From Candidatus Thiovulum imperiosus (lineage in GTDB: Bacteria > Campylobacterota > Campylobacteria > Campylobacterales > Thiovulaceae), in assembly GCA_024281175.1 (NCBI GenBank), contig JAMJTW010000014.1:62001-126000 (forward strand): a DNA stretch of 64,000 nucleotides, written 5' to 3'. Shown piece after piece: positions 10,593 to 21,806 of this stretch. Every line of letters begins with the position of its first letter. Position 1 is the stretch's first letter. The notes under the pieces were generated by a model. It saw nothing but the letters and a program-made list of their open reading frames with translations. It made no database searches and had not been told where the DNA came from. The position numbers and the translations under genes were made by a program.

Positions 10593-10707
10593 GTCTAAAA
10601 GTAGAACCAAAATTGCTCTTTGTTATTTCAAAGGGTTGGCAATAACGATTTTATCATCTTTTACTTTTATTTAAGTAAAATAGTGAAAATTGTTTAGGAT
10701 AGTTAAA

Positions 10708-12408
10708 ATGGAGGCTACTGAAAAGAAATTCATAGAATTTTTGAAAGAGCAACAAGAGAAAAAATTACTAATTCCAATTTATCAAAGAGCTTATGAATGG
10801 ACAACAAAAAAAGATAAAGAAGTTCAAACTCTTTGGGAAGATATTGAAAACATAGAAGATGAGAACTCAACTCATTTTATAAACTCTATTGTTTATATTG
10901 CTGATGAGCAGAATAGCGTATATATAAATATAATTGATGGTCAGCAGAGAATTACAACACTCTCTATTCTCTATATTGTAATTCGGGATAGATTAGTAAA
11001 GTTACAAAAAGAGAAAAAATTCAAAATGTTTCTTGAAGATATTAAAATAGTTCAAGAGCAAATTGAAGAGAACTATCTAATTAGAAAGTGGCAAAAAGGA
11101 GATGATAAAGTTCGCTTATCTCTATCAAACAAAAATAAAGATAGAGAAATCTACAATAAATTGGTTCTCGGTGAGTATAAAAACCTATCAATTTCCAAAG
11201 ATAAAAATTCAAATCTTATAAAAACCTACAAATTTTTCAATAGTTCTCAAAAGATAAGTAGCTACTCTTTTGAAGAGATACAAACCCTGCTTTCCAAAAT
11301 AGAGAGAGTTGTAATTGTTAAAGTTACTCTTGAACTTGAGAAAGATAATCCTCAAATTGTATTTTCAAGTATACATGGTGGTTTAAAACTTAAAGATACA
11401 GACCTCATCAAAAACTCTATCTTTATGAAATTAGAGAGAGTAGAGCAAGAAAAACTTCATTCAGAACTTTGGGAGACTTTGGAATATGATATGAGTGAAA
11501 AAGAGTTTGCTATTTTTATAAGCTACTTTCTCACTTTAAAACTAAATCGAGTTGTCTCCAGCAATGCTATTTACGATGAATTTGTAAATAAATATTTCAA
11601 GAATTTTTTGGCCGAAAATGAATTTGAGAAAGTTCAAAATGTGCTACTTGAAATAAGTTCATATAAAGATATTTTTCTTCAATTGAAAAATGGTTCTATT
11701 TTTGAAGAACTCTCTATTCTTCCTTACTTCAATATAGAAGCCTACTTCCCTTTCTTGATGAAAATTAGAAAAGAAGAGAGTCCTTTCTTTACAAAGATTT
11801 GGAAAATTATAGAGAGCTTCTATGTTAGAAGATTTGTTTATGGTCTTCCTCCAGGTGCAACAAAAAATATTTTTGCTCTCCTCTGTAAATATGAAAATAT
11901 AGAAGTTTCACAATTTATAAATTTCTTAGAAGAGAAGAGTAAACAACAGAGATTTCCAAAAAGAGACGAGTTTGAAGAGAGCTTGAGAAATAGAAATCTT
12001 TATGAAGATAATAAAACATCTACTAAAGCTATTCTTTTTGCACTTGAAAAAAGTTTAGATAGTGAGTTTGCTTTAAGTAGAGAGAACTTTGAAGAGTTTT
12101 CAGTTGAACATGTTTTACCACAAGAGTATGAGAAATTAGATAGCTGTTGGAAAGATAACTTTTCAGAAGAAGAGCATAAAAAAGAACTTCACCTTATGAA
12201 AAACCTAACTATTTTAAGAAAAGAGGAAAACTCTTCTGCTGGAATTGGCTGTTTTAAAAGTAAAAAACATATTTACAATAGTAGTGAATTGGCTTTGAAT
12301 GAGAAGATAGCTGATTATGATAGCTGGACAAAGAAAAGTATGGAAGATTACTTAGACAAAGTAGTAGAGTTGGCTTTGAAAAGATGGGAAGACTTAGAGA
12401 ATGTCTAA
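10708..12408 (+). CDS. DUF262-DUF1524 protein, SspE/GmrSD-like restriction nuclease
   Basis: A 566-residue protein with both signature domains. The N-terminal DUF262 has IPIYQRAYEW (about residues 22-31) and the nucleotide-handling motif DGQQR (77-81). The C-terminal DUF1524 is an HNH-type nuclease with EHVLPQ, a downstream N-L-T strand and conserved F-x-x-K residues. In known proteins this architecture is SspE (senses DNA phosphorothioates and nicks DNA) or GmrSD (cuts glucosylated DNA). With dndCDE 5 kb away, the SspE reading is attractive but inferred. ATG 10708, with AGGA at 10696-10699, is preferred to TTG 10690. It is the first gene of a four-gene operon and overlaps the next by 8 bp. 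Confidence 0.88.
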   Translation: MEATEKKFIEFLKEQQEKKLLIPIYQRAYEWTTKKDKEVQTLWEDIENIEDENSTHFINSIVYIADEQNSVYINIIDGQQRITTLSILYIVIRDRLVKLQKEKKFKMFLEDIKIVQEQIEENYLIRKWQKGDDKVRLSLSNKNKDREIYNKLVLGEYKNLSISKDKNSNLIKTYKFFNSSQKISSYSFEEIQTLLSKIERVVIVKVTLELEKDNPQIVFSSIHGGLKLKDTDLIKNSIFMKLERVEQEKLHSELWETLEYDMSEKEFAIFISYFLTLKLNRVVSSNAIYDEFVNKYFKNFLAENEFEKVQNVLLEISSYKDIFLQLKNGSIFEELSILPYFNIEAYFPFLMKIRKEESPFFTKIWKIIESFYVRRFVYGLPPGATKNIFALLCKYENIEVSQFINFLEEKSKQQRFPKRDEFEESLRNRNLYEDNKTSTKAILFALEKSLDSEFALSRENFEEFSVEHVLPQEYEKLDSCWKDNFSEEEHKKELHLMKNLTILRKEENSSAGIGCFKSKKHIYNSSELALNEKIADYDSWTKKSMEDYLDKVVELALKRWEDLENV

Positions 12409-13474
12409 AAATATAGAATATATTAAAGTAGATGATTTAGATTTTGACTTTAAAAATCCGAGATTACCAATTCAAGCAAAAAGTGAAAATGAGATAATAG
12501 AGTGGATGCTTCAAGATGCTTCTATTTTAGAACTTATGTTGGCAATTGGACAGAGTGGTTTTTTTGTTGGTGAAGCAATTTTAGTAGTTCCACAAGGAAG
12601 AAAATATATTGTAATTGAAGGAAATAGACGACTTACAGCTGTAAAGCTCTTAAATTATCCAGAGTTGGCAACTCTTCATAAAAGAAAAGTTAAAGAAATT
12701 TTAAAAGAGACTCAAGAGAGACCAAAAGAGATACCATGTTTAGTTTTTGAGAAGAGAGAAGAGATATTAAAGTATCTTGGGTATAGACATGTTACAGGAG
12801 TTAAATCTTGGGGAGTTTTAGCAAAAGCCAAATACCTTTCTCAACTTCGGGAATATTATAAAAATAAGAGTTTACATGAACAGTCAAGAGAGTTAGCAAA
12901 AGAGATTGGAAGTAAAAGTAATTATGTAAAACGACTTTTGATTGGATATGAGATTTATGAAATTATTGAAGATAATGGCTTTTACAAAATACCAAGACTT
13001 GATAAAACTACTTTCCATTTCAATTACATTGCAGATTTTTTAAACAGAGGAAATATAAATAGATTTGTTGGTGTTGATTTAGATAAAGAAAATCCTTTAG
13101 AAGAAGTAAATGAAGAGAATTTAGAAACTCTTACTCGTCTGTTCTTTGAAAAAAACGACCAAAACAGAAGTCGAGTTTTAGGAAATGGTGATGACTTAAA
13201 AAAATTAAATGAAGTTCTTGGAAATAAAAAAGCTACAAAACATTTTTTAGATGGTGAAAGTTTAGATGATGCTTTTAAAAGTTTAGAAGAGAGTGAAAGT
13301 AGTTTTAGGAATGAGCTTTATGAAGCTAAAAATACTCTTCAAAATGCACAAAGTTATGTTCATAAAATAGAGTATGATGAAAGTTTAATTGAGAATTTAA
13401 AAGAGATTGTAGAAATTTGTAAAAGTTTGAAAAATAGTCTTGAGGATAAGAAAAAAGATGAGTGGGACATTTAG
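12401..13474 (+). CDS. ParB/Srx-fold protein of the defence operon
   Basis: A 357-residue protein whose N-terminal third is a ParB/sulfiredoxin-like domain: the characteristic VIEGNRRLTAVKLL (residues 71-84) corresponds to the G-x-R-R nucleotide-binding motif. The middle is helical, with a possible HTH (KEIGSKSNYVKRLL), and the C-terminal 80 residues look coiled. Some ParB-fold proteins are CTPases, others nucleases; which applies here cannot be told. It overlaps the upstream gene by 8 bp and the downstream gene by 17 bp, so the operon is tight. DndB, the usual dnd partner with a DGQHR motif, is not recognisable here. Confidence 0.8.
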   Translation: MSKNIEYIKVDDLDFDFKNPRLPIQAKSENEIIEWMLQDASILELMLAIGQSGFFVGEAILVVPQGRKYIVIEGNRRLTAVKLLNYPELATLHKRKVKEILKETQERPKEIPCLVFEKREEILKYLGYRHVTGVKSWGVLAKAKYLSQLREYYKNKSLHEQSRELAKEIGSKSNYVKRLLIGYEIYEIIEDNGFYKIPRLDKTTFHFNYIADFLNRGNINRFVGVDLDKENPLEEVNEENLETLTRLFFEKNDQNRSRVLGNGDDLKKLNEVLGNKKATKHFLDGESLDDAFKSLEESESSFRNELYEAKNTLQNAQSYVHKIEYDESLIENLKEIVEICKSLKNSLEDKKKDEWDI

Positions 13475-14444
13475 AAATTTAAGCACACCACCATCTGAAG
13501 CAAAATATAAACAGCACTATTTTTGCGATTATATTGAACTCTTAGTTTTAGCAAGTGGAGACTCTTTATCAAAATCTGATGTAGCGATGAGGTTTGGAAA
13601 AGAAGATGGTGCTGAAAAAGAGGACGAAGAAGATAGTTATATCTTAGAACTTTTTCAAATTTTGGAAGTACGACAAAATACATTCAAAGAGTTTTATCCT
13701 TTTGAAGTTAAAAATGGAGTTGTATCTTCTATAAAATTAAAAGATAACTTAGAACTTTATCACAATAGCTATCTATTTCTACTACTAACCTCATCTCTAC
13801 AATATATAAATCAACAACATATCTTTGGAAAAGATAAGATATTGGAAAATGAGTTTGAAACATTTTCATATAGAATATTTAAGAGATATTTGGGAAATTG
13901 CACTCAAGTTTATCAATTTGGAGCTTCTAATGAAGCTGGATATAGAGGAACTCTTCAAGAAAAAGTAGATAATTTGGCAAAAAATTTAAAGTATCAAACA
14001 AAATATAAATCACACTATTTTGATAAAAGAAATAGTGGTGACGGTGGTTTAGATATTGTTGCTTGGAAATATTTCCCAAATGATATAAATATGACAAATA
14101 TAGAGATTTATTTAGGACAGTGTGCAACAGGAGAAAATTGGTTAAAGAAATTAGACGATGTTGATAAGTTTAAAAATTATATCGATTTTGAGGGAGTTTT
14201 TACAAAATATATGTTTATTCCTTATGATGCTCGAAATATGGATAGAACTTTTACAGAAGAGAAAGATATTCATAGAGACTTAGTTATGTTTGATAGGTCA
14301 AGATTTTTTTTCTCTCGTAGTTTTGTGAAATATAGGCTTTTTCAAGATTTAAAAGGCTTCTCTTTGTTAGAAAACATTCAAAAACATAAGGGTCTTCCAA
14401 ACCATTTCGAAAAAGATACTCCTATATTTGAGGATATAGTTTGA
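13458..14444 (+). CDS. PD-(D/E)XK-like nuclease protein of the defence operon
   Basis: A 328-residue protein. Residues 194-200 read GDGGLDI and residues 220-225 GQCATG, the spacing of a restriction-endonuclease core (Asp in the first motif, Q-x-K in the second). The expected catalytic Lys is replaced by Ala (QCA), so the enzyme may use another Lys or may be inactive. The N-terminal half is predicted helical and has no recognised fold. The start at ATG 13458 is chosen because the coding frame before it lacks a ribosome-binding site and M-S-G-T-F follows directly. It overlaps the ParB-like gene by 17 bp and the Mrr gene by 4 bp. Confidence 0.72.
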   Translation: MSGTFRNLSTPPSEAKYKQHYFCDYIELLVLASGDSLSKSDVAMRFGKEDGAEKEDEEDSYILELFQILEVRQNTFKEFYPFEVKNGVVSSIKLKDNLELYHNSYLFLLLTSSLQYINQQHIFGKDKILENEFETFSYRIFKRYLGNCTQVYQFGASNEAGYRGTLQEKVDNLAKNLKYQTKYKSHYFDKRNSGDGGLDIVAWKYFPNDINMTNIEIYLGQCATGENWLKKLDDVDKFKNYIDFEGVFTKYMFIPYDARNMDRTFTEEKDIHRDLVMFDRSRFFFSRSFVKYRLFQDLKGFSLLENIQKHKGLPNHFEKDTPIFEDIV

Positions 14445-15253
14445 CTATATTGGAAGCAATTCAAGAGGTGTTGAAAATTGAAAGAAAACCTCTACCTCAT
14501 CGAGAAATATATAAGAAAATAGTTCAAAATAATTTTTATAGTTTTAAGGCAAAAGACCCATCTAATGTTGTTCAACAACAGTTGAGAAGACACTGTATCG
14601 GGTTAGATTTTCCATCGTCAAAAAAAAATAAATATTTCAAAATAGTTGATAGTAATAAATCTCTCACAACTTACTATCTTCTTGAAAAGAATGAGAAAAA
14701 TCAAACTACAAATGTAAAACTATCAAATCAAGAAAAATTACCAGAAGAGACAATTAGCGAACATATTCAACAACATAAAAGAGATATTGAACAGGAACTT
14801 TTAGAAACTATTTTAAATTCTAAGCCAAGTTTCTTTGAAGAACTTGTTGTAAAACTCCTTTTAAAAATGGGTTATGGTTGGGATAAAAGTAAATCTGGTT
14901 TTGTTAATGGTAAAAGTGGAGATGGTGGAATTGATGGCATTATTTTTGAAGATAAATTAGGTTTAGGAAAAATTTATATTCAAGCTAAAAGATATAGTGA
15001 TAAATCTATTGGAAGACCTGAACTTCAGCAATTTGTTGGAGCTATGGAACATAACCACAAGGGAGTTTATATATCAACATCAACTTTCACAAAACAAGCT
15101 AGAGAATATATAGAAAAGCAATCTAAAAATATTGTTTTAATTGATGGTCAAAAACTGGTTTCTCTTCTTGTAGAAAATAGAATTGGAATAGAAATTATTG
15201 AAACATTACATATTTATAAAGTTGATGACGAATTTTTTAAGGAAAACAACTAG
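14441..15253 (+). CDS. Mrr-type restriction endonuclease with N-terminal HARE-like HTH
   Basis: A 270-residue protein. The N-terminal 80 residues (TILEAIQEVLKIERKPLPH...) match a HARE-HTH DNA-binding module. The C-terminal domain is a clear Mrr catalytic fold: FFEELVVKLLLKMGYG, then GDGGIDG (residues 160-166) and IQAKRYS (180-186), so the D...Q-x-K site is intact. Mrr-family enzymes restrict modified DNA (type IV). The start is TTG 14441, overlapping the upstream TGA by 4 bp (TTGA). It is the last gene of the operon and is followed by a strong bidirectional terminator. Confidence 0.88.
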   Translation: MTILEAIQEVLKIERKPLPHREIYKKIVQNNFYSFKAKDPSNVVQQQLRRHCIGLDFPSSKKNKYFKIVDSNKSLTTYYLLEKNEKNQTTNVKLSNQEKLPEETISEHIQQHKRDIEQELLETILNSKPSFFEELVVKLLLKMGYGWDKSKSGFVNGKSGDGGIDGIIFEDKLGLGKIYIQAKRYSDKSIGRPELQQFVGAMEHNHKGVYISTSTFTKQAREYIEKQSKNIVLIDGQKLVSLLVENRIGIEIIETLHIYKVDDEFFKENN

Positions 15254-15264
15254 ATATTTTATAA

Positions 15265-15299
15265 AATATTTGAGAGGTATTAGAAACCTCTTAAATATT
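15265..15299. terminator. Long bidirectional terminator after the defence operon
   Basis: AATATTTGAGAGGT (15265-15278), loop ATTAGAA, ACCTCTTAAATATT (15286-15299): 14 pairs with one G-U. A/T-rich arms give a T-rich 3' side in both directions. It sits between the convergent mrr-like and rha-like genes. Confidence 0.8.
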
Positions 15300-15308
15300 G
15301 CAAAAAAC

Positions 15309-16172
15309 TTATGGCTCTATCAACTTGTTACAGCTTATGCCTAGTTTTTCAAGAAGTTCAGAGAACTTATCTTCATAAAATCTAACTTGAGTTTCAGCAG
15401 AGCTTCCATGAGTAGAAACTACATTCTTTCCAAACTCTTCACCAATTTCTGTAATAGACCAAAACTGCTTTTGAACCTTTATCTCTACCTCATCGCCATT
15501 ATCATCTTTAATAAGTTTTGTTTTAGAAGAGTCTCGAAATTTTTTCTCGATAAATCCATCGGCTTCAAGAAGTGCATTCACTTTCACCGCACTCATTTCA
15601 ACCCCGTTTTGTTTAAGAAGTTGAGTTAAAGAGAAAGAGGCTTTTCCATCAATATAATCTGGTAAATATGAAGTGTCAAGTCCGAATGTGTTAAACATTT
15701 TTCTAGCCATTCTTGTTTTATCTTCATCAGAAGTTGCTAAATTGTCTTGAGCAAACTTTAGAGCCAATAAGTTGTTTTCTATTTTTTCTTTTTCATAAAT
15801 TTTAGAAACTTCAGCTTGAGCTTCTTGCTTCCCTTGAGAAATCATCTCTCTCATTGTGAAGAACTCTTCAACAAGTTGCAATTTGAATTCAACAACCGTT
15901 TCCGAATTCTTTAAAAGAGTCATGATGAAAGTTGATTGAGGTTCATTTAAGAAGTAAGTTACTATCTCATTTACCCTATTTTTCGAGTTTTTGATAGCCT
16001 CATTTTTAAAATGAACCTTTCCAAACCTCTCAAATTTCTCTCGATACTTATTGATTAAGTTCCGAACTGAAACCTCTTGATTGTTTGTATGCTTTGCGAT
16101 AACTCTATGAGAAACTCTTGGTTCATTCTCTACTAATTCTATGATAGAATTCTGTAAATTAACACTTGACAT
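15309..16172 (-). CDS. Phage Rha-family regulatory protein
   Basis: A 287-residue protein. The N-terminal 100 residues follow the Rha/pRha pattern: SHRVIAKHTNNQEVSVRNLINKY, then LNEPQSTFIMTLLKNS and VEFKLQLVEEFFTMRE. The C-terminal part (LTQLLKQNGVEMSAVKVNALL...) resembles the KilA-C/antirepressor domain of phage Ant proteins. Rha proteins occur in temperate phages and interfere with phage growth or repression. ATG 16172 is preceded by AAAGG inside a small dyad CCTTT-AAAGG. It points toward the defence operon and sits among other phage-type regulators. Confidence 0.75.
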   Translation of the reverse strand: MSSVNLQNSIIELVENEPRVSHRVIAKHTNNQEVSVRNLINKYREKFERFGKVHFKNEAIKNSKNRVNEIVTYFLNEPQSTFIMTLLKNSETVVEFKLQLVEEFFTMREMISQGKQEAQAEVSKIYEKEKIENNLLALKFAQDNLATSDEDKTRMARKMFNTFGLDTSYLPDYIDGKASFSLTQLLKQNGVEMSAVKVNALLEADGFIEKKFRDSSKTKLIKDDNGDEVEIKVQKQFWSITEIGEEFGKNVVSTHGSSAETQVRFYEDKFSELLEKLGISCNKLIEP

Positions 16173-16267
16173 GTTTTACCTTTCATATATGTAAAGGTTA
16201 AGTTCTTAGATTTAAGATTAGACGGTCAAATCATTATCTTATTTCTTTGAACTATTAAATTTTTAAA

Positions 16268-16287
16268 AGAACACGAATTTTTGTTCT
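16268..16287. promoter_or_regulatory. Operator-like dyad between the rha and XRE genes
   Basis: AGAACA (16268-16273), 8-bp spacer, TGTTCT (16282-16287). A short symmetric site between two regulator genes is typical of an XRE or Rha operator. No binding data can be inferred. Confidence 0.35.
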
Positions 16288-16297
16288 GTTGTTGAAA

Positions 16298-16543
16298 TTA
16301 TATTGAGATATTTTCTATTTTGTCAAGGCTTTTTCTTTGTAAAATTGAAATATCTTCAATTAAAGCAAAATACTTTCTCTCGTTCATAAGAGCTTTTAAC
16401 ATAACTCCGATGTGAGGTTCAAAATTTCCTTTTGCCCAAGTAGACATAGTTCTTTCTGAAACTCCTATCCGTTCAGCCAACTCTTTTTGAGTAATTCCTA
16501 ATTCTTGAGTTGTTCTCTTTACTAATGAAATTTCTTTTTTCAT
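16298..16543 (-). CDS. XRE-type HTH regulator
   Basis: An 81-residue HTH protein when started at the second of two adjacent ATGs (16543), which gives the better spacing from AAAGGA. The HTH reads ELGITQKELAERIGVSERTMSTWAKG, with the second helix ending in a Trp-containing recognition helix, as in phage and antitoxin repressors. The rest (NERKYFALIEDISILQRKSL) is helical. It is transcribed toward the rha gene, with 125 bp between. Confidence 0.75.
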   Translation of the reverse strand: MKKEISLVKRTTQELGITQKELAERIGVSERTMSTWAKGNFEPHIGVMLKALMNERKYFALIEDISILQRKSLDKIENISI

Positions 16544-16608
16544 CATTTGTCCTTTCAAGATAAATTGTAGCAAACATAAGTAAGTGGCGGGAAACTCTTT
16601 TACAAAGT

Positions 16609-17016
16609 CTACTTAGCAAAAATATCAAGAAGTTTCATTGTAATAACAAGAACACCAGCACCACTAATCAGCCACTTAGTTTGAGTATTAATAGCTTTTT
16701 CAAGTTTTGCTTCAAACTTCTGTTCCATAGTTTCAAACTTCTGTTCTATGGTCTCAAATTTCGCGTCAAACTTCTGCTCAAGATTTTCAAACTTTCGTTC
16801 TATGGTCTCAAATTTCTGTTCAAGTTTTTTAACACTATCAACTGTTTCATCTAACTTTTTATCAAGATGATTTATGTGATTTACTTGAGTTTTAAGAACA
16901 AGTGTGTGCATATCATTAGATGATAAGGTTTCACCTTTTGCAAATTTCTCTTCAACTTTTTCAGCCTCTTTCAAAACAAGAGATACGAAAGTATCCTCAA
17001 CATTAGTTTTATCCAT
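16609..17016 (-). CDS. Coiled-coil protein with C-terminal membrane anchor
   Basis: A 135-residue protein. Residues about 45-110 are a continuous coiled coil made of diverged 7- and 11-residue units (variants of EQKFETIE and EQKFEAK repeated six times). A C-terminal hydrophobic segment (WLISGAGVLVITMKLLDIF) follows, probably a tail anchor. This resembles DUF1640/Bdr-type proteins seen in phage and accessory regions; the function is unknown. ATG 17016 has AAAGGAG upstream. It is separated from the XRE gene by about 65 bp. Confidence 0.7.
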   Translation of the reverse strand: MDKTNVEDTFVSLVLKEAEKVEEKFAKGETLSSNDMHTLVLKTQVNHINHLDKKLDETVDSVKKLEQKFETIERKFENLEQKFDAKFETIEQKFETMEQKFEAKLEKAINTQTKWLISGAGVLVITMKLLDIFAK

Positions 17017-17029
17017 TAGATAACTCCTT

Positions 17030-17212
17030 TAAATTTGGGGTTGACCAAATAGGCTTCCACCTTTCTTGTCATTTCGATATGAGCGTAGCGATTGAGAAAT
17101 CTTGGAAACTTATCGTTTTGCTAAATAAAAGATTTCTCACCCGAAAGGGTTCGAAATGACATATAGGTTGTTAAAGCGTAAAAATACTCTATTTGGTCAG
17201 TCCCTTAAATTT
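17030..17212. repeat. MITE-like element with TGACCAAATAG terminal inverted repeats
   Basis: About 183 bp with no ORF. The left end AAATTTGGGGTTGACCAAATAG (17031-17052) and right end (17189-17212) are imperfect inverted repeats sharing TGACCAAATAG. Inside is a second pair, GTCATTTCGA (17068-17077) and TCGAAATGAC (17151-17160), and a third, GAGAAATCTT (17094-17103) and AAGATTTCTC (17129-17138). The whole unit can fold into one long hairpin. A half copy occurs at 26182 and a possible trace of the end motif at 60421. Confidence 0.75.
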
Positions 17213-17327
17213 TAGATAGCAGACTTTCTAGCTCTTCATAGTTTCACTACCGACACCAGAATTTTATTGTTCTATTTCTTGCAAATAGCTTAATAAATAT
17301 ACTGATGGCTATTTAAACTAGATTTGA

Positions 17328-17333
17328 TACAAT
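17328..17333 (+). promoter_or_regulatory. Extended -10 promoter of the HTH-dndCDE operon
   Basis: TTTGATACAAT: a TACAAT hexamer with an upstream TG, the usual Campylobacterota sigma-70 element. The predicted mRNA would begin only about 10 bases before ATG 17350, leaving little more than the AGAGG ribosome-binding site. Confidence 0.6.
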
Positions 17334-17349
17334 CATAAAGAGGTTTGAA

Positions 17350-17559
17350 ATGGAATATGTAGATTTAAGAAAAAGAGCTAAGAGAATAGGTTTAAACCTG
17401 AAAGAGTTGTCAAAATTAATAGGGATAAGTTATGATGGTCTTATGAAATGGAAAAATGTTGGCATTCCAGATTATGGGATAACATTAATTCAGCTTCTCG
17501 AAAGACTATCCTTAGAAGAGAGAGAAAAGTTTTTTCAAGAAAAGTTAGGGGAAAAGTAG
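17350..17559 (+). CDS. Small HTH protein at the head of the dnd operon
   Basis: A 69-residue protein. MEYVDLRKRAKRIGLNLKELSKLIGISYDGLMKWKN is an XRE/Mor-type helix-turn-helix, and the remainder is a short amphipathic helix. It lies 12 bp upstream of dndC, with AGAGG before its ATG, and is likely the operon's own transcriptional regulator. This role is inferred from position. The other dnd regulator family (DndB) is absent, so this small protein may have taken over control. Confidence 0.7.
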   Translation: MEYVDLRKRAKRIGLNLKELSKLIGISYDGLMKWKNVGIPDYGITLIQLLERLSLEEREKFFQEKLGEK

Positions 17560-17571
17560 ATAGAGATTTAA

Positions 17572-18834
17572 ATGATATTAAAAACTAAACAGAAAATAGA
17601 GAAAGAGTATCTTTCAGATAATAGACCTTTTGTAATTGCTTTTAGTGGCGGAAAGGACTCTACACTTCTTTTACATCTCTTTTTAGATGTAGTTTTAGAT
17701 TTAAAAAGAAGAGGTGAGAAACTCAAGCAGAGTTACATAGTTTCGTCTGATACAAAAGTTGAACTTCCAATTATTGAGAATTTTCTGGAAAGAAATATTT
17801 TAGAGTTACAAGATTTTGTAAGAAAAGAGGGGCTTCCAATAGAGGTAGTTCTAATTCAGCCTGAAGTTCAAAGCTCTTTCTTTTCTTTAATGATAGGCAA
17901 GGGGTATCCACCTCCAAATCGCATTTTTAGATGGTGTACCGATAGATTGAAAATTAGACCAACTCAAAGATATTTTGAAACACTTGTAGCAAATCATAGT
18001 TCTATAATTTTGCTTCTAGGTGTTCGACGAGATGAGTCCGAAAATCGTCAAAAAAGTATAGATATGCGAGATAGAAACCATAGAGATTTAAGTATTCACG
18101 ATGTTATTCCAAATGCTTTTATTCTCTCTCCAATTTCAGACTGGACTACTGATGAGGTTTGGAAATTTTTAAGAGAAAATAAGCCTCAATGGAGAGAGAG
18201 CTATTCAGAACTTTTAAATATTTATGCAAAAGGTTCTGGAAATGATGAATGTGGTTTGACTTTTGATAAGGACTCTCCGAGTTGCGGAAGCTCGAGATTT
18301 GGGTGCTGGACTTGTACGGTGGTATCTAAAGATAAGAGTATGGAAGGAATGCTACAAAGTGGCGAAACTGTTTTAGAACCACTTCATCAATATCGAGAGT
18401 ATCTTATGGAAATTCGAGAAGACAAAACAAAAAGAAGTCCTCGACGAAAGAACGGTACTTCTGGTATGGGTGATTTTTTGATGGAAGTTCGTTTTGAGCT
18501 TTTGGAAAAACTTTTAGAAGCCGAACAAAAGATAGGTAAGGAACTTGTCTCAAATAGTGAAATTGAGCAAATTCAAGAGTTCTGGAACTTTGATGGAAAT
18601 ATCGATTTCATGGCTTTTCAAATTGCAAATAGATACAAAAGAGAGAAATTTCAAATTCCAGAAACTCCTTTTGAAGTTGAAAACTTTTCAGGAAATTTGG
18701 AACTTTTCAAAAGAGTATATGAAATTGAAAAGAGGCGAAAGATTTCCAGAGACCGTCGAGGAATTTTGGTAGAAATTGAAAATAGAATTCAGAGCCATTT
18801 TGAAAGGATTTTTTCTGAAAATTACAAAGATTGA
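17572..18834 (+). CDS. dndC: DndC, DNA phosphorothioation sulfurtransferase
   Basis: A 420-residue PAPS-reductase-like ATP pyrophosphatase that carries the 4Fe-4S cluster passing sulfur to the DNA backbone. The PP-loop AFSGGKDS is at residues 23-30. Cys122 is in RWCTDRLKIRPTQR. The cluster motif SCGSSRFGCWTC (Cys238, 245, 248) is followed by TVVSKDKSMEGM, the diagnostic DndC/SspD-type stretch. Length is somewhat below the usual 500 or so. It needs a cysteine desulfurase (DndA or IscS) not encoded in this window. It is followed by dndD with overlapping frames. Confidence 0.92.
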   Translation: MILKTKQKIEKEYLSDNRPFVIAFSGGKDSTLLLHLFLDVVLDLKRRGEKLKQSYIVSSDTKVELPIIENFLERNILELQDFVRKEGLPIEVVLIQPEVQSSFFSLMIGKGYPPPNRIFRWCTDRLKIRPTQRYFETLVANHSSIILLLGVRRDESENRQKSIDMRDRNHRDLSIHDVIPNAFILSPISDWTTDEVWKFLRENKPQWRESYSELLNIYAKGSGNDECGLTFDKDSPSCGSSRFGCWTCTVVSKDKSMEGMLQSGETVLEPLHQYREYLMEIREDKTKRSPRRKNGTSGMGDFLMEVRFELLEKLLEAEQKIGKELVSNSEIEQIQEFWNFDGNIDFMAFQIANRYKREKFQIPETPFEVENFSGNLELFKRVYEIEKRRKISRDRRGILVEIENRIQSHFERIFSENYKD

Positions 18835-20461
18835 AATTGAAAATATGTTTTCCTATTTTGGAAAAAGCGAGATAGAGTTTTCCAAGAGAAATGCGGTTCT
18901 TGGAGAAAATGGTTTTGGAAAAACCTCTTTTCTAAATTCCTTAAAATTTGCTTTTGGTCGAGATTTTGAAAACTATCAAAATAGAAATGCTACCTCAAGA
19001 GCAAGTGTAAAAGTTGTTACAGAAGACTTTACTATCTTTCGAGATATAGAACTTCAGATAGATTTTGGCGATGAGGTTCTCAAAGACGATGAAGCCAAAG
19101 AGTTTCTAAACTCAAATTTTCCAGATGAGATTCTCGATTTTCTCTTTTTTGATGGTGAAATTGAAAATATTGCGATTTCCAACTCAAAAGCTCTTAAAAA
19201 AATCATCTCTATCGTTTTCGACTTTGATATTCTCCAAAATTTAGAAAATGATTTAAAGAGAGTTCGAAATCGACTTTTGAAAAAAACAGAAAGTAAAGAG
19301 CTTGACAGATTTAAAAGTTTAAATCAAGAGAAAGTAGATTTCTGTTTGGAAATCCATAAGTTGGAAGAGAGCAGAGAGAATCTCCAAAAAGAGATTTCCC
19401 AAATTTCCAAAGAGATTCAAAAGATAGATTCTAAAATTGTAAAAGAGAGTGAAGAAGTTGGAAAATTTGAAACTCAAATTGGAATTGAAGAAGCGAATCT
19501 CAAGGAGAAAACAGAGCTTTTCAAGAAAATAAATCTGTTCCAATTTCCTCTAATTCTAAATAGTGATTTGAGTAGTAGTGTTTCAAAAGATGAAAATTTT
19601 CTAACTATTAAAAGTGAAGATGAGTTGAAAAAGAGACTTGAGGAATTTTATAGTGCTACTCAAAGTGGAGTTGGAAAGAGTGATTTTATCGAACTTTTCT
19701 ACTCTATTTTCAAGAGTTCTTTCCTAAATCTAAAAACTGAAATTTCAAAAGAGGAACTCTTTCAACTTTTTACAGAAATTTCTGAAATTTCTAGTGAGAT
19801 AGAAAAGTTGAAATCTGAACAGAGAGAAGTAACTAAAAATAATTCCAAAACTTTAGAGTTGCAGAAGAGTAGAAATGCTCTTTCGGAAAAGTTGAAAAAT
19901 TTAGAACTTCAAAAAAGTGAGTCTGATTCTAAAATAGGAGTTTTGAAAGAGAAATTGAAAAAAGTTGAATCTAATTTGAGAATTGAGTTTTTAAATCAGA
20001 AAGAGAAAGTTTCGGCTTTAAGAAGTATTGAGGAAATCGATAAGCAAGTTGAACTTACCAAGGAGCTTTTAGAGTCTGAAATTGAGAAATCTGTTCAAAA
20101 ATTCAATTTTGAATTTCAAAAAAACTTAGAACCTTTTTACAAAAAATATCCACTGGAAGAGAAACTTTTTCTGAAAGATTTCTCTTTGGAAGTATCGCAA
20201 CTTTCGGCTGGACAAAAGCAGATAGTAAATTTCATTCTAATTCAAACTCTATTAGAAATCTCAAATTTGACAGAAACAATTTTTGTAGATACTCCATTTG
20301 GTCGTCTCTCAAATGAGAACCGAAAACTGATTTTGGAAATCTATAAAACTTTCCCATCTCTAACTCTACTTCTTACAAGTAGTGAAGAAGTAGCTATTTC
20401 AAAAGAGGAATTTTCAGTTTTCCAAATATCTCAAAACAGCAAAGGTTCAGAAATTGGTTAA
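18815..20461 (+). CDS. dndD: DndD, SMC-like ATPase of the phosphorothioation complex
   Basis: ABC/SMC-type ATPase of the Dnd modification complex, about 548 residues (usual about 650-700). Walker A is LGENGFGKTS (about residues 29-38), two long coiled-coil arms occupy about 150-450, and the signature LSAGQKQ (about 463-469) and Walker B TIFVDTP follow. The start is unclear. TTG 18776 has no ribosome-binding site, whereas AAAGGA at 18803-18808 sits 6 bp before CTG 18815, giving L/M-K-I-T-K-I-E-I-E-N. ATG 18845 would remove the first beta strand. It overlaps dndC by about 20 bp and dndE by 8 bp. Confidence 0.88.
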   Translation: MKITKIEIENMFSYFGKSEIEFSKRNAVLGENGFGKTSFLNSLKFAFGRDFENYQNRNATSRASVKVVTEDFTIFRDIELQIDFGDEVLKDDEAKEFLNSNFPDEILDFLFFDGEIENIAISNSKALKKIISIVFDFDILQNLENDLKRVRNRLLKKTESKELDRFKSLNQEKVDFCLEIHKLEESRENLQKEISQISKEIQKIDSKIVKESEEVGKFETQIGIEEANLKEKTELFKKINLFQFPLILNSDLSSSVSKDENFLTIKSEDELKKRLEEFYSATQSGVGKSDFIELFYSIFKSSFLNLKTEISKEELFQLFTEISEISSEIEKLKSEQREVTKNNSKTLELQKSRNALSEKLKNLELQKSESDSKIGVLKEKLKKVESNLRIEFLNQKEKVSALRSIEEIDKQVELTKELLESEIEKSVQKFNFEFQKNLEPFYKKYPLEEKLFLKDFSLEVSQLSAGQKQIVNFILIQTLLEISNLTETIFVDTPFGRLSNENRKLILEIYKTFPSLTLLLTSSEEVAISKEEFSVFQISQNSKGSEIG

Positions 20462-20831
20462 AACATCTAAAATAGTTGAAGAGAGCATTCCAAAAGTTTT
20501 AAAAAACTTACAAATTCCAAATGAACCAAAGTGGGTGGCTTTGAGATTTTTTATAAATATCTCTCTTTCTGTGAAAGGAGATTTCTCTTTTGAGGAGAGT
20601 CGAGATGGTAGCGAGTATCGGCTTGAACAAGTTGTTGGCAAGGGAAAAGAGAGCGAAGACTTTTCAAAACATTATAAAAAGATGCTTGAGACTTTTGATG
20701 AGGTAGAGTTTGAAACAGAAAAAGATTTTGAAATCTCTCTGGAGAAACACATTCAGAGAGGACATTTTGTAATATCAAAATCTACAAAAAGCGATATTTT
20801 CTCTTTTCTACAACAAGAATTTTCTAAATAG
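20454..20831 (+). CDS. dndE: DndE, DNA phosphorothioation accessory protein
   Basis: A 125-residue small protein of the DndE type, which in other systems binds nicked DNA as part of the modification complex. The segment PNEPKWVALRFFINISLSVKG fits the conserved helical DndE core (a K-x-x-A-L-R-x-x-I-x-x-S-L pattern), and the C-terminal part is charged. Identification rests on position, size and this pattern. The start is TTG 20454, with AAAGG at 20441-20445, overlapping dndD by 8 bp. It is the last gene of the modification operon. Confidence 0.8.
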   Translation: MVKTSKIVEESIPKVLKNLQIPNEPKWVALRFFINISLSVKGDFSFEESRDGSEYRLEQVVGKGKESEDFSKHYKKMLETFDEVEFETEKDFEISLEKHIQRGHFVISKSTKSDIFSFLQQEFSK

Positions 20832-20845
20832 AGTGAAGAAATTTC

Positions 20846-20862
20846 GGAGAGGATATCTCTCC
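20846..20862. terminator. Short hairpin between convergent dndE and pabB
   Basis: GGAGAG (20846-20851), loop GATAT, CTCTCC (20857-20862). The stem is perfect but there is no strong U tract on either strand, so it may be a weak or factor-assisted terminator. Confidence 0.45.
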
Positions 20863-20870
20863 TGTAAAAG

Positions 20871-21806
20871 TTAAAAAAGATATACTTTATCTATCATCTC
20901 TCTGTACTCAAGTTCCACTCTGCTATCAAGTGTAATTCCACCTCCACTTTTATAGAAAAGTTTTTCTCCTCTCTTTTCAAGAAATCGTATCATCACTCCA
21001 CTATCAAAATTTTCACCATCAAAAATTCCAAAAACGCCACTAAAAAATCCTCTATGGTATTCTTCAATTTCTGAAATAAGTTCTACTGTTCTCTTTTTAG
21101 GAGTTCCAGTAATACTACCTGCTGGAAGTATCTTTTCTAAAATAGTTCCAATTTGGCTTTGCCAATCATTTTCTAAATCACCAACAATTTTGGAACTCAT
21201 CTGAAACAGCTCTTTTTCACCACTTCTAATTTTAGAAATAGTTCTAAACTCTTCAACTCTAATTTTAGTTGCAACCATATTTAAGTCATTTCGGAGAAGG
21301 TCTACTATCATGACATGTTCAGCCAACTCTTTCTGATTTGATAGCAGAACCTCATCACCATTTGGAACTGAGCCATCAAGAGTTCCTTTCATTGGAAAAG
21401 CTGTAATTCTATTTTGAGAAATTTTGACAAATGTTTCAGGAGAGTAGGAGAGAAACTCATCTTTAAATCTTATCTTATATTTCGCTTCAGCATATTTGTA
21501 AATCTCTTTCAAATCACTATTTATCTCAATTTCACTTTCTGAAGTCAAATTCAAAACATAGGTATATCCCTTGCGAATTGAAGTTATCACCTTTTGGAAC
21601 TTCTCTCTATATTTCTCAAATTCCAAAGAGGAGATACTATATTTCACATCTCTTTTCTGAAAAGAGTTACCATCTATCTCAAATTCTATATCATGATTTT
21701 GGAGTTCGCTAATTGGTACAACAACTACTCTACTCTTATCATAAGAGACTACTATTAGAAAAGGAGTTCTCTCTTTTCCTAATCTATTTGCATATTCAAA
21801 ACTCAA
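20871..21806 (-). CDS. pabB: Aminodeoxychorismate synthase component I
   Basis: Chorismate-binding enzyme of folate synthesis, making 4-amino-4-deoxychorismate with an amidotransferase partner. The 311 residues cover only the chorismate-binding domain: YSPETFVKI, FPMKGTLDGSVPNGD, EHVMIVDLLRNDL, PAGSITGTPKKRTVELI and IRFLEKRGEKLFYKSGGGITLDS. The short length without an N-terminal extension is normal in Campylobacterota. The start TTG 21806 directly abuts the pilT stop with no gap, so its translation depends on pilT. No pabA/trpG is visible. Confidence 0.9.
   Translation of the reverse strand: MSFEYANRLGKERTPFLIVVSYDKSRVVVVPISELQNHDIEFEIDGNSFQKRDVKYSISSLEFEKYREKFQKVITSIRKGYTYVLNLTSESEIEINSDLKEIYKYAEAKYKIRFKDEFLSYSPETFVKISQNRITAFPMKGTLDGSVPNGDEVLLSNQKELAEHVMIVDLLRNDLNMVATKIRVEEFRTISKIRSGEKELFQMSSKIVGDLENDWQSQIGTILEKILPAGSITGTPKKRTVELISEIEEYHRGFFSGVFGIFDGENFDSGVMIRFLEKRGEKLFYKSGGGITLDSRVELEYREMIDKVYLF

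Follow-up and report, generated by a model that had tools for sequence, protein, structure and literature searches.

A ParB-like protein and a predicted nuclease subunit pair with phosphorothioation genes in Candidatus Thiovulum imperiosus and with DNA methyltransferase genes elsewhere

In Candidatus Thiovulum imperiosus, the DNA phosphorothioation genes dndCDE were found near a two-gene unit, ParB-REx, which consists of a ParB-like protein and REx, a predicted PD-(D/E)XK nuclease subunit. The same unit recurs in other genomes and phages next to either dnd or DNA methyltransferase genes. The locus is read as a phosphorothioate-based restriction-modification system in which DndCDE would mark host DNA and ParB-REx would restrict unmarked DNA, a reading to which we give a probability of roughly two in three. 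It bears on two open questions, namely why phosphorothioate systems have such a large number of restriction partners and how a genome can be protected by a backbone mark that is sparse. The locus lies in the window, the whole stretch of 64,000 nucleotides analysed here, which belongs to an assembly of 2.2 Mb in 36 contigs with a completeness of 98%.

The island and its modification genes

The island comprises two units on the same strand, flanked by apparent housekeeping gene blocks (Table 1). The first (10708-15253) contains four overlapping genes, encoding GmrSD, ParB-like, REx, and HARE-HTH + Mrr proteins, with successive overlaps of 8, 17, and 4 bases. The second unit is dndC-dndD-dndE (17572-20831), separated from the operon by a gap of 2.3 kb. 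This arrangement had been set out in a preliminary description of the DNA and was confirmed by gene calls and domain matches. A small HTH-like ORF in front of dndC is a possible regulator of dnd. On the minus strand between the operon and dndCDE (15309-17016) a pRha-like gene, an HTH ORF, and a coiled-coil ORF were found, which are possibly mobile-element remnants.

Table 1. Genes and ORFs of the island, in window coordinates
Feature	Position	Strand	Basis or remarks
GmrSD-type protein (DUF262-DUF1524), PADLOC Orf5/HEC-06 class, accessory effector	10708..12408	+	DGQQR, HNH-like EHVLP motif
ParB-like protein	12401..13474	+	Srx/ParB N-domain with EGNRRL motif, HTH region, C-terminal helices
REx, predicted PD-(D/E)XK nuclease subunit	13458..14444	+	constant neighbour of ParB-like gene
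HARE-HTH + Mrr_cat nuclease	14441..15253	+	domain matches
Small HTH-like ORF, 69 aa, directly 5' of dndC	17350..17559	+	ORF call; role inferred
DndC, short form, 420 aa	17572..18834	+	TIGR03183, motifs
DndD, short coiled coil	18800..20461	+	motifs; start codon uncertain, ORF opens 18776
DndE	20454..20831	+	PF08870

DndC passes its family model (TIGR03183, 319 bits; cut-off 290) and scores 357 bits with a DndC model versus 44 bits with the SspD model. Its PP-loop (S25-S30) and all five cysteines are kept, and these are invariant among 17 DndC proteins. In DndD the Walker A, signature, and Walker B motifs are all intact; the protein scores 97.7 bits with TIGR03185, under the cut-off of 245.9, and its coiled coil is short. 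DndE exceeds the PF08870 cut-off with 30.5 bits. Searches of the host genome detected neither DndB nor DptH/DndH, and the DptH query did detect its target in two positive controls (G010 and G298). The dndCDE core without DndB, and without the DndFGH partner, is thus as previously described. A strong class-V aminotransferase, of the IscS/NifS kind of cysteine desulfurase, is encoded on another contig of the genome.

Short DndD proteins (561-601 aa versus about 660) without the CxxC hook motif were seen in the window and in L044, L048, and L088. The neighbours of short-form dndCDE in Campylobacterota (L044, L045, L046, L047, L048, L049, and L052) are varied partner operons: GmrSD alone, GmrSD with an ABC ATPase, DndH with Orf5, DndH with AIPR (AbiU-like), or DndB-like genes. 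These partners look exchangeable. In G285 a ribonucleotide reductase gene with a LAGLIDADG/Hint intein was found beside dndCDE (L050:6251-9901).

The GmrSD and Mrr genes

In the product of the first operon gene, the GmrSD_N and GmrSD_C domains are both above cut-off. This protein had been credited with the SspE architecture. The domain order is indeed right, but among PADLOC models the protein matches Orf5 best (265.8 bits, 2.4e-79), followed by HEC-06 and then SspE (68 bits, 1.3e-19), and its identification as SspE was rejected on these scores.

The Orf5 match raises the alternative that the chief restriction enzyme sensing phosphorothioate is GmrSD, as a DndI-like or SspE-like protein, with ParB-REx and Mrr in an auxiliary or back-up role. 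Four other Campylobacterota (G210, G036, G143, and G265) have GmrSD genes adjoining short-form dndCDE, and two of them (G210 and G265) are without DptH. In G143 the gene directly behind dndH, in the position described for dndI, is a further Orf5 match (6e-209), and IscS-DndBCDE with DndI is a demonstrated defence system (PMC11662687). However, the window GmrSD is 22-30% identical to these dnd-linked copies, over part or all of its length, and the closest copy among those compared is a second one in the same genome (30% identity) that is not beside dnd. Moreover, G365 pairs dndCDE with ParB-REx and carries no DndFGH, GmrSD, or Mrr within the 15.7 kb examined. The alternative is accordingly regarded as unlikely. 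Since the closest GmrSD compared is a non-dnd copy from its own genome, the link of GmrSD to phosphorothioation is weaker than that of ParB-REx; a tie is plausible but unproven. The second copy, also Orf5-type (L010, G000:C5:80000-98000), shares its island with AriA/AriB-like (PARIS) genes and with genes for large unassigned proteins.

The Mrr protein belongs to the HARE-HTH + REase class, which the accessible part of a recent survey already reports beside dnd (PMC10853773). It recurs beside ParB-REx once, in Thalassotalea, where a homologue with 47% identity is encoded by an N-terminally truncated ORF one gene upstream of ParB-REx. GmrSD and Mrr are taken to be effectors added to ParB-REx.

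ParB-REx and its modification partners

Relatives of REx were sought without reference to dnd, using REx alone or small REx alignments (a six-sequence version was without a usable stretch; a three-sequence version was usable). A scan of genome contigs with the single REx protein gave no match. Further loci came from searches of phages and plasmids with the ParB-like protein. In every intact locus examined, the ParB-like gene was found directly upstream of REx. The resulting 27 loci include 8 linked to dnd, 14 linked to a methyltransferase, and 5 with neither visible. In 22 of them the modification gene is immediately adjacent, often stop-to-stop, and is of one kind, never both; these loci form restriction-modification pairs in the sense of gene pairing only.

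The dnd-linked loci are the window, two from other Campylobacterota, three from Gammaproteobacteria, one from a planctomycete, and one within a dndFGH operon. In G365, ParB (52% identity) and REx (41%) are convergent and stop-to-stop with dndE-dndD-dndC. This is the minimal form, with ParB-REx and convergent dndCDE and nothing else in the stretch examined. In G285 a C-terminal fragment of REx at the contig end is convergent with dndE. The pair is convergent with dndEDCB in Marinomonas (L064) and Thalassotalea (L065). In an Alteromonadales member (L066) it adjoins a small ORF at the place of dndE, with dndD at the contig end, and in Rhodopirellula (L068) it lies beside dndA, dndBCD, and a small ORF in the dndE position. 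In L063 a single operon contains dptF-dptG-dptH followed by the pair, and a search of the assembly detected no DndC. In the Campylobacterota sample, REx lies within about 2.4 kb of dnd genes in three of four REx-bearing genomes, where the chance rate of such proximity is roughly estimated at about 0.1% per locus.

Among the methyltransferase-linked loci, the partner is a C5 enzyme in L067, L069, L075, L076, L077, a Wphi/P2 isolate (L078/L079), and Pseudomonas phage D14A (L080); phage 12474III (L081), whose annotation reads just "DNA methyltransferase", was counted with this group. D12 (N6A) methyltransferases accompany the pair in L072, G217, and Vibrio (L011), and N6/N4 methyltransferases in L073, L074, and Mesorhizobium (L012). 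No partner is visible in a Persicobacter plasmid (L006), L070 (a 3 kb contig), L071, the Neorhizobium Z1 island (L013), or L082. HMMs built from the 14 methyltransferases found no match in any dnd-linked stretch, including the 64 kb window, which is a moderate negative because the HMMs are small. A dndC gene in the L067 genome was rejected as a partner of ParB-REx, as it lies unlinked on a separate 15.6 kb contig.

A tree of concatenated ParB and REx sequences (24 rows, excluding G365, which was found later, and the G285 fragment) places the six intact dnd-linked pairs in a single clade (support 100/99), whose sister is the partnerless Persicobacter pair (99/94). Methyltransferase-linked pairs occur on both sides of the midpoint. 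Partner type thus follows the tree, and the simplest reading of these sequences would be one switch from methylation to phosphorothioation, with the root not fixed.

The earlier proposal that the nuclease module is truly linked to dnd was upheld by seven more genomes, for which dnd had not been a search criterion. The whole ParB-REx family is more often linked to methyltransferases, whereas the window's clade is uniformly dnd-linked, and this distribution does not refute the dnd link. The idea of the four-gene operon as a conserved unit was rejected, as no other locus carries the whole set; the conserved unit is ParB-REx.

Defence genes are known to cluster, and the pair could be a mark-independent defence module that merely gathers near modification genes belonging to separate systems. 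The five loci without a nearby modification gene would fit, as would the occurrence of PD-lambda-5-type relatives of the ParB domain in other contexts. However, the immediate adjacency to one of two partner kinds and the agreement of partner type with the tree argue otherwise. Moreover, P2-like phages, in which cargo space is very limited, retain ParB, REx, and the methyltransferase together. Such a module is therefore considered improbable.

The ParB-like and REx proteins

The ParB-like protein has no Pfam match above cut-off. Its N-terminal half matches the PADLOC PD-Lambda-5_A models, with residues ~1-150 of 357 aligned to the first ~160 of 430-590 model positions. An AlphaFold model (pLDDT 87.5) has structural matches in KorB, ParB, and Noc, nucleotide-bound entries among them, with Foldseek E-values of about 1e-6 to 1e-4 (3.8e-6 for KorB), and the sequence profile matches ParB 4umk. 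The ParB/Srx N-domain and HTH fold are shared with these clamps, as is a GxxR/EGNRR-type motif, and EGNRR is invariant in the family. From its modelled fold, the protein is predicted to be a CTP-switch DNA clamp and the sequence-recognition subunit. ParB-type CTP clamps are known from chromosome and plasmid segregation, and this pair suggests that they may also have been recruited for DNA restriction.

REx matches no protein family and has no PADLOC model, and a PDB sequence search with its profile gave no meaningful match. Its structural model (pLDDT 79, pTM 0.83) has the topology alpha-beta-beta-beta-alpha-beta, the core order of PD-(D/E)XK enzymes: helix 128-145 (E134), strands 149-153 and 200-205 (D199 at its start), strand 215-222 (Q221), helix 228-240 (K231), and strand 248-253. 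D199, Q221, W228, and K231 are invariant and E134 near-invariant (ATG numbering). E134, D199, and Q221 fit a PD-(D/E)XK core, but Q-C-A stands where Mrr-type nucleases have Q-x-K; the invariant K231, ten residues after Q221, may replace the usual lysine in the modelled site. The top PDB match is MspJI, a modification-dependent nuclease (probability 0.96, but weak with E 0.017 and TM 0.28), and BsaWI, SgrAI, and PaqCI rank lower.

DndB is also a ParB-superfamily protein and is absent from the host genome, and the REx active site is non-canonical, yet it is very improbable that the ParB-like protein is a DndB-like modification regulator and REx a non-nuclease that helps to place the mark, since DndB coexists with ParB-REx in L064, L065, and L068, the pair is also found with unrelated methyltransferases, EGNRR-HTH is an architecture of the KorB/ParB type rather than that of DndB, and the REx topology is of the restriction-enzyme type.

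Proposed mechanism

In the preferred reading, a phosphorothioate-based restriction-modification system, DndCDE and the housekeeping cysteine desulfurase would mark host DNA with phosphorothioate. The HTH of the ParB-like subunit would load at specific sequences, and a CTP-switched clamp would hold or slide as in KorB, ParB, and Noc. REx would then cut the DNA found by the clamp, which might protect the host against phages, and a mark on the recognised sequence or close to it would stop loading or cutting. Most of the family would use C5-, N6-, or N4-methylation as the protective mark, and one derived clade would use phosphorothioate instead. In the host genome, GmrSD and HARE-HTH/Mrr would have joined the operon as extra nucleases, which are probably mark-sensing.

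Because the pair accompanies C5, N6, and N6/N4 methyltransferases as well as DndCDE, a reader tuned to one chemistry is unlikely, and a mark that obstructs recognition fits better. If the mark need only obstruct recognition, the self-mark would be interchangeable. A broader and more tentative proposal is a mark-agnostic engine, in which a CTP-switched ParB clamp delivers a PD-(D/E)XK nuclease to unmarked DNA and the self-mark can be swapped among three methylation chemistries and phosphorothioation. If true, this would represent a new mechanistic class of restriction in which ParB clamping serves self/non-self discrimination, and the findings suggest that one cutter of foreign DNA may use chemically unrelated protective marks. 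As the same two restriction proteins occur with methyltransferases and with dndCDE, the influence of the mark can be studied without changing the cutter.

Several observations count against the preferred reading, namely the non-canonical REx active site and its weak PDB match, the L063 pair with dndFGH but no DndC found, the five partnerless loci, and the clustering of defence genes. A further difficulty is that in known Dnd systems only 10-15% of the sites carry the mark (PMC11662687), which sits poorly with simple protection. The window system might modify a larger share of the sites that matter, or sparse marks might act remotely through clamping and sliding.

Relation to known systems

It is already known that Dnd modification is decoupled from DndFGH, that Dnd-linked nucleases are diverse, that DndI exists, and that type-4 BREX swaps its mark. 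DndABCDE is often found without DndFGH and with other nucleases, including HARE-HTH + REase, and methylases can replace phosphorothioation on a DndDE core, according to the accessible part of Rakesh, Aravind and Krishnan 2024 (PMC10853773). That part names DndB as a ParB-superfamily protein and describes neither a ParB + REase pair nor a restriction pair common to dnd and methyltransferases. In type-4 BREX phosphorothioation takes the place of methylation (PMC12839542), a precedent for such a swap; BrxC and PglZ are not in the region scanned at the window.

IscS-DndBCDE-DndI (PMC11662687) resembles the window system in that a DUF262-DUF1524 protein acts with Dnd modification and without DndFGH. 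DUF262 and DUF1524 with DGQQR and HNH are present in the window, and DndB is absent. However, DndI is encoded with dndFGH, whereas the window GmrSD, at most distantly related, belongs to a four-gene operon. The DUF262/DUF1524 order is shared with SspE of SspABCD-SspE, but the match to solved SspE is limited to the N-terminal ~100 residues, and the modification genes at the window are DndCDE, not SspABCD. The HKD nuclease-SF2 helicase PbeA of PbeABCD was not found among the ten ORFs scanned (10690-21806). PD-lambda-5 has been described as a compacted, RM+Abi-like prophage system that includes a methyltransferase domain (Vassallo 2022, PMC9519451). At the window, the match of the ParB-like protein to PD-Lambda-5_A covers its N-terminal ~150 residues only, and REx has a gene of its own.

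The literature searched contained no description of ParB-REx, of its division between two kinds of partner, or of its occurrence in P2-like phages, although the supplements of PMC10853773, beyond its accessible part, may contain such neighbourhoods. In the P2-like phages Wphi (L078, AY135739.1, 28393-32684, reverse complement), L079 (NC_070904.1), and L080 (BK061475.1), direct ParB and REx homologues are convergent with a C5 methyltransferase; the Wphi genes are gp98, gp96, and Mth. The Wphi annotation lists the pair as orf98 and orf96 next to a "DNA cytosine methylase", and no function for the two was found in the literature searched. The gp98-gp96-Mth cargo is likely a phage-borne restriction-modification cassette, and the version in this coliphage makes the module testable in E. 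coli. On a metagenomic phage scaffold in which no methyltransferase was detected (L082, MT835579.1 11542-19606), two divergent ParB-REx pairs were found in inverted arrangement.
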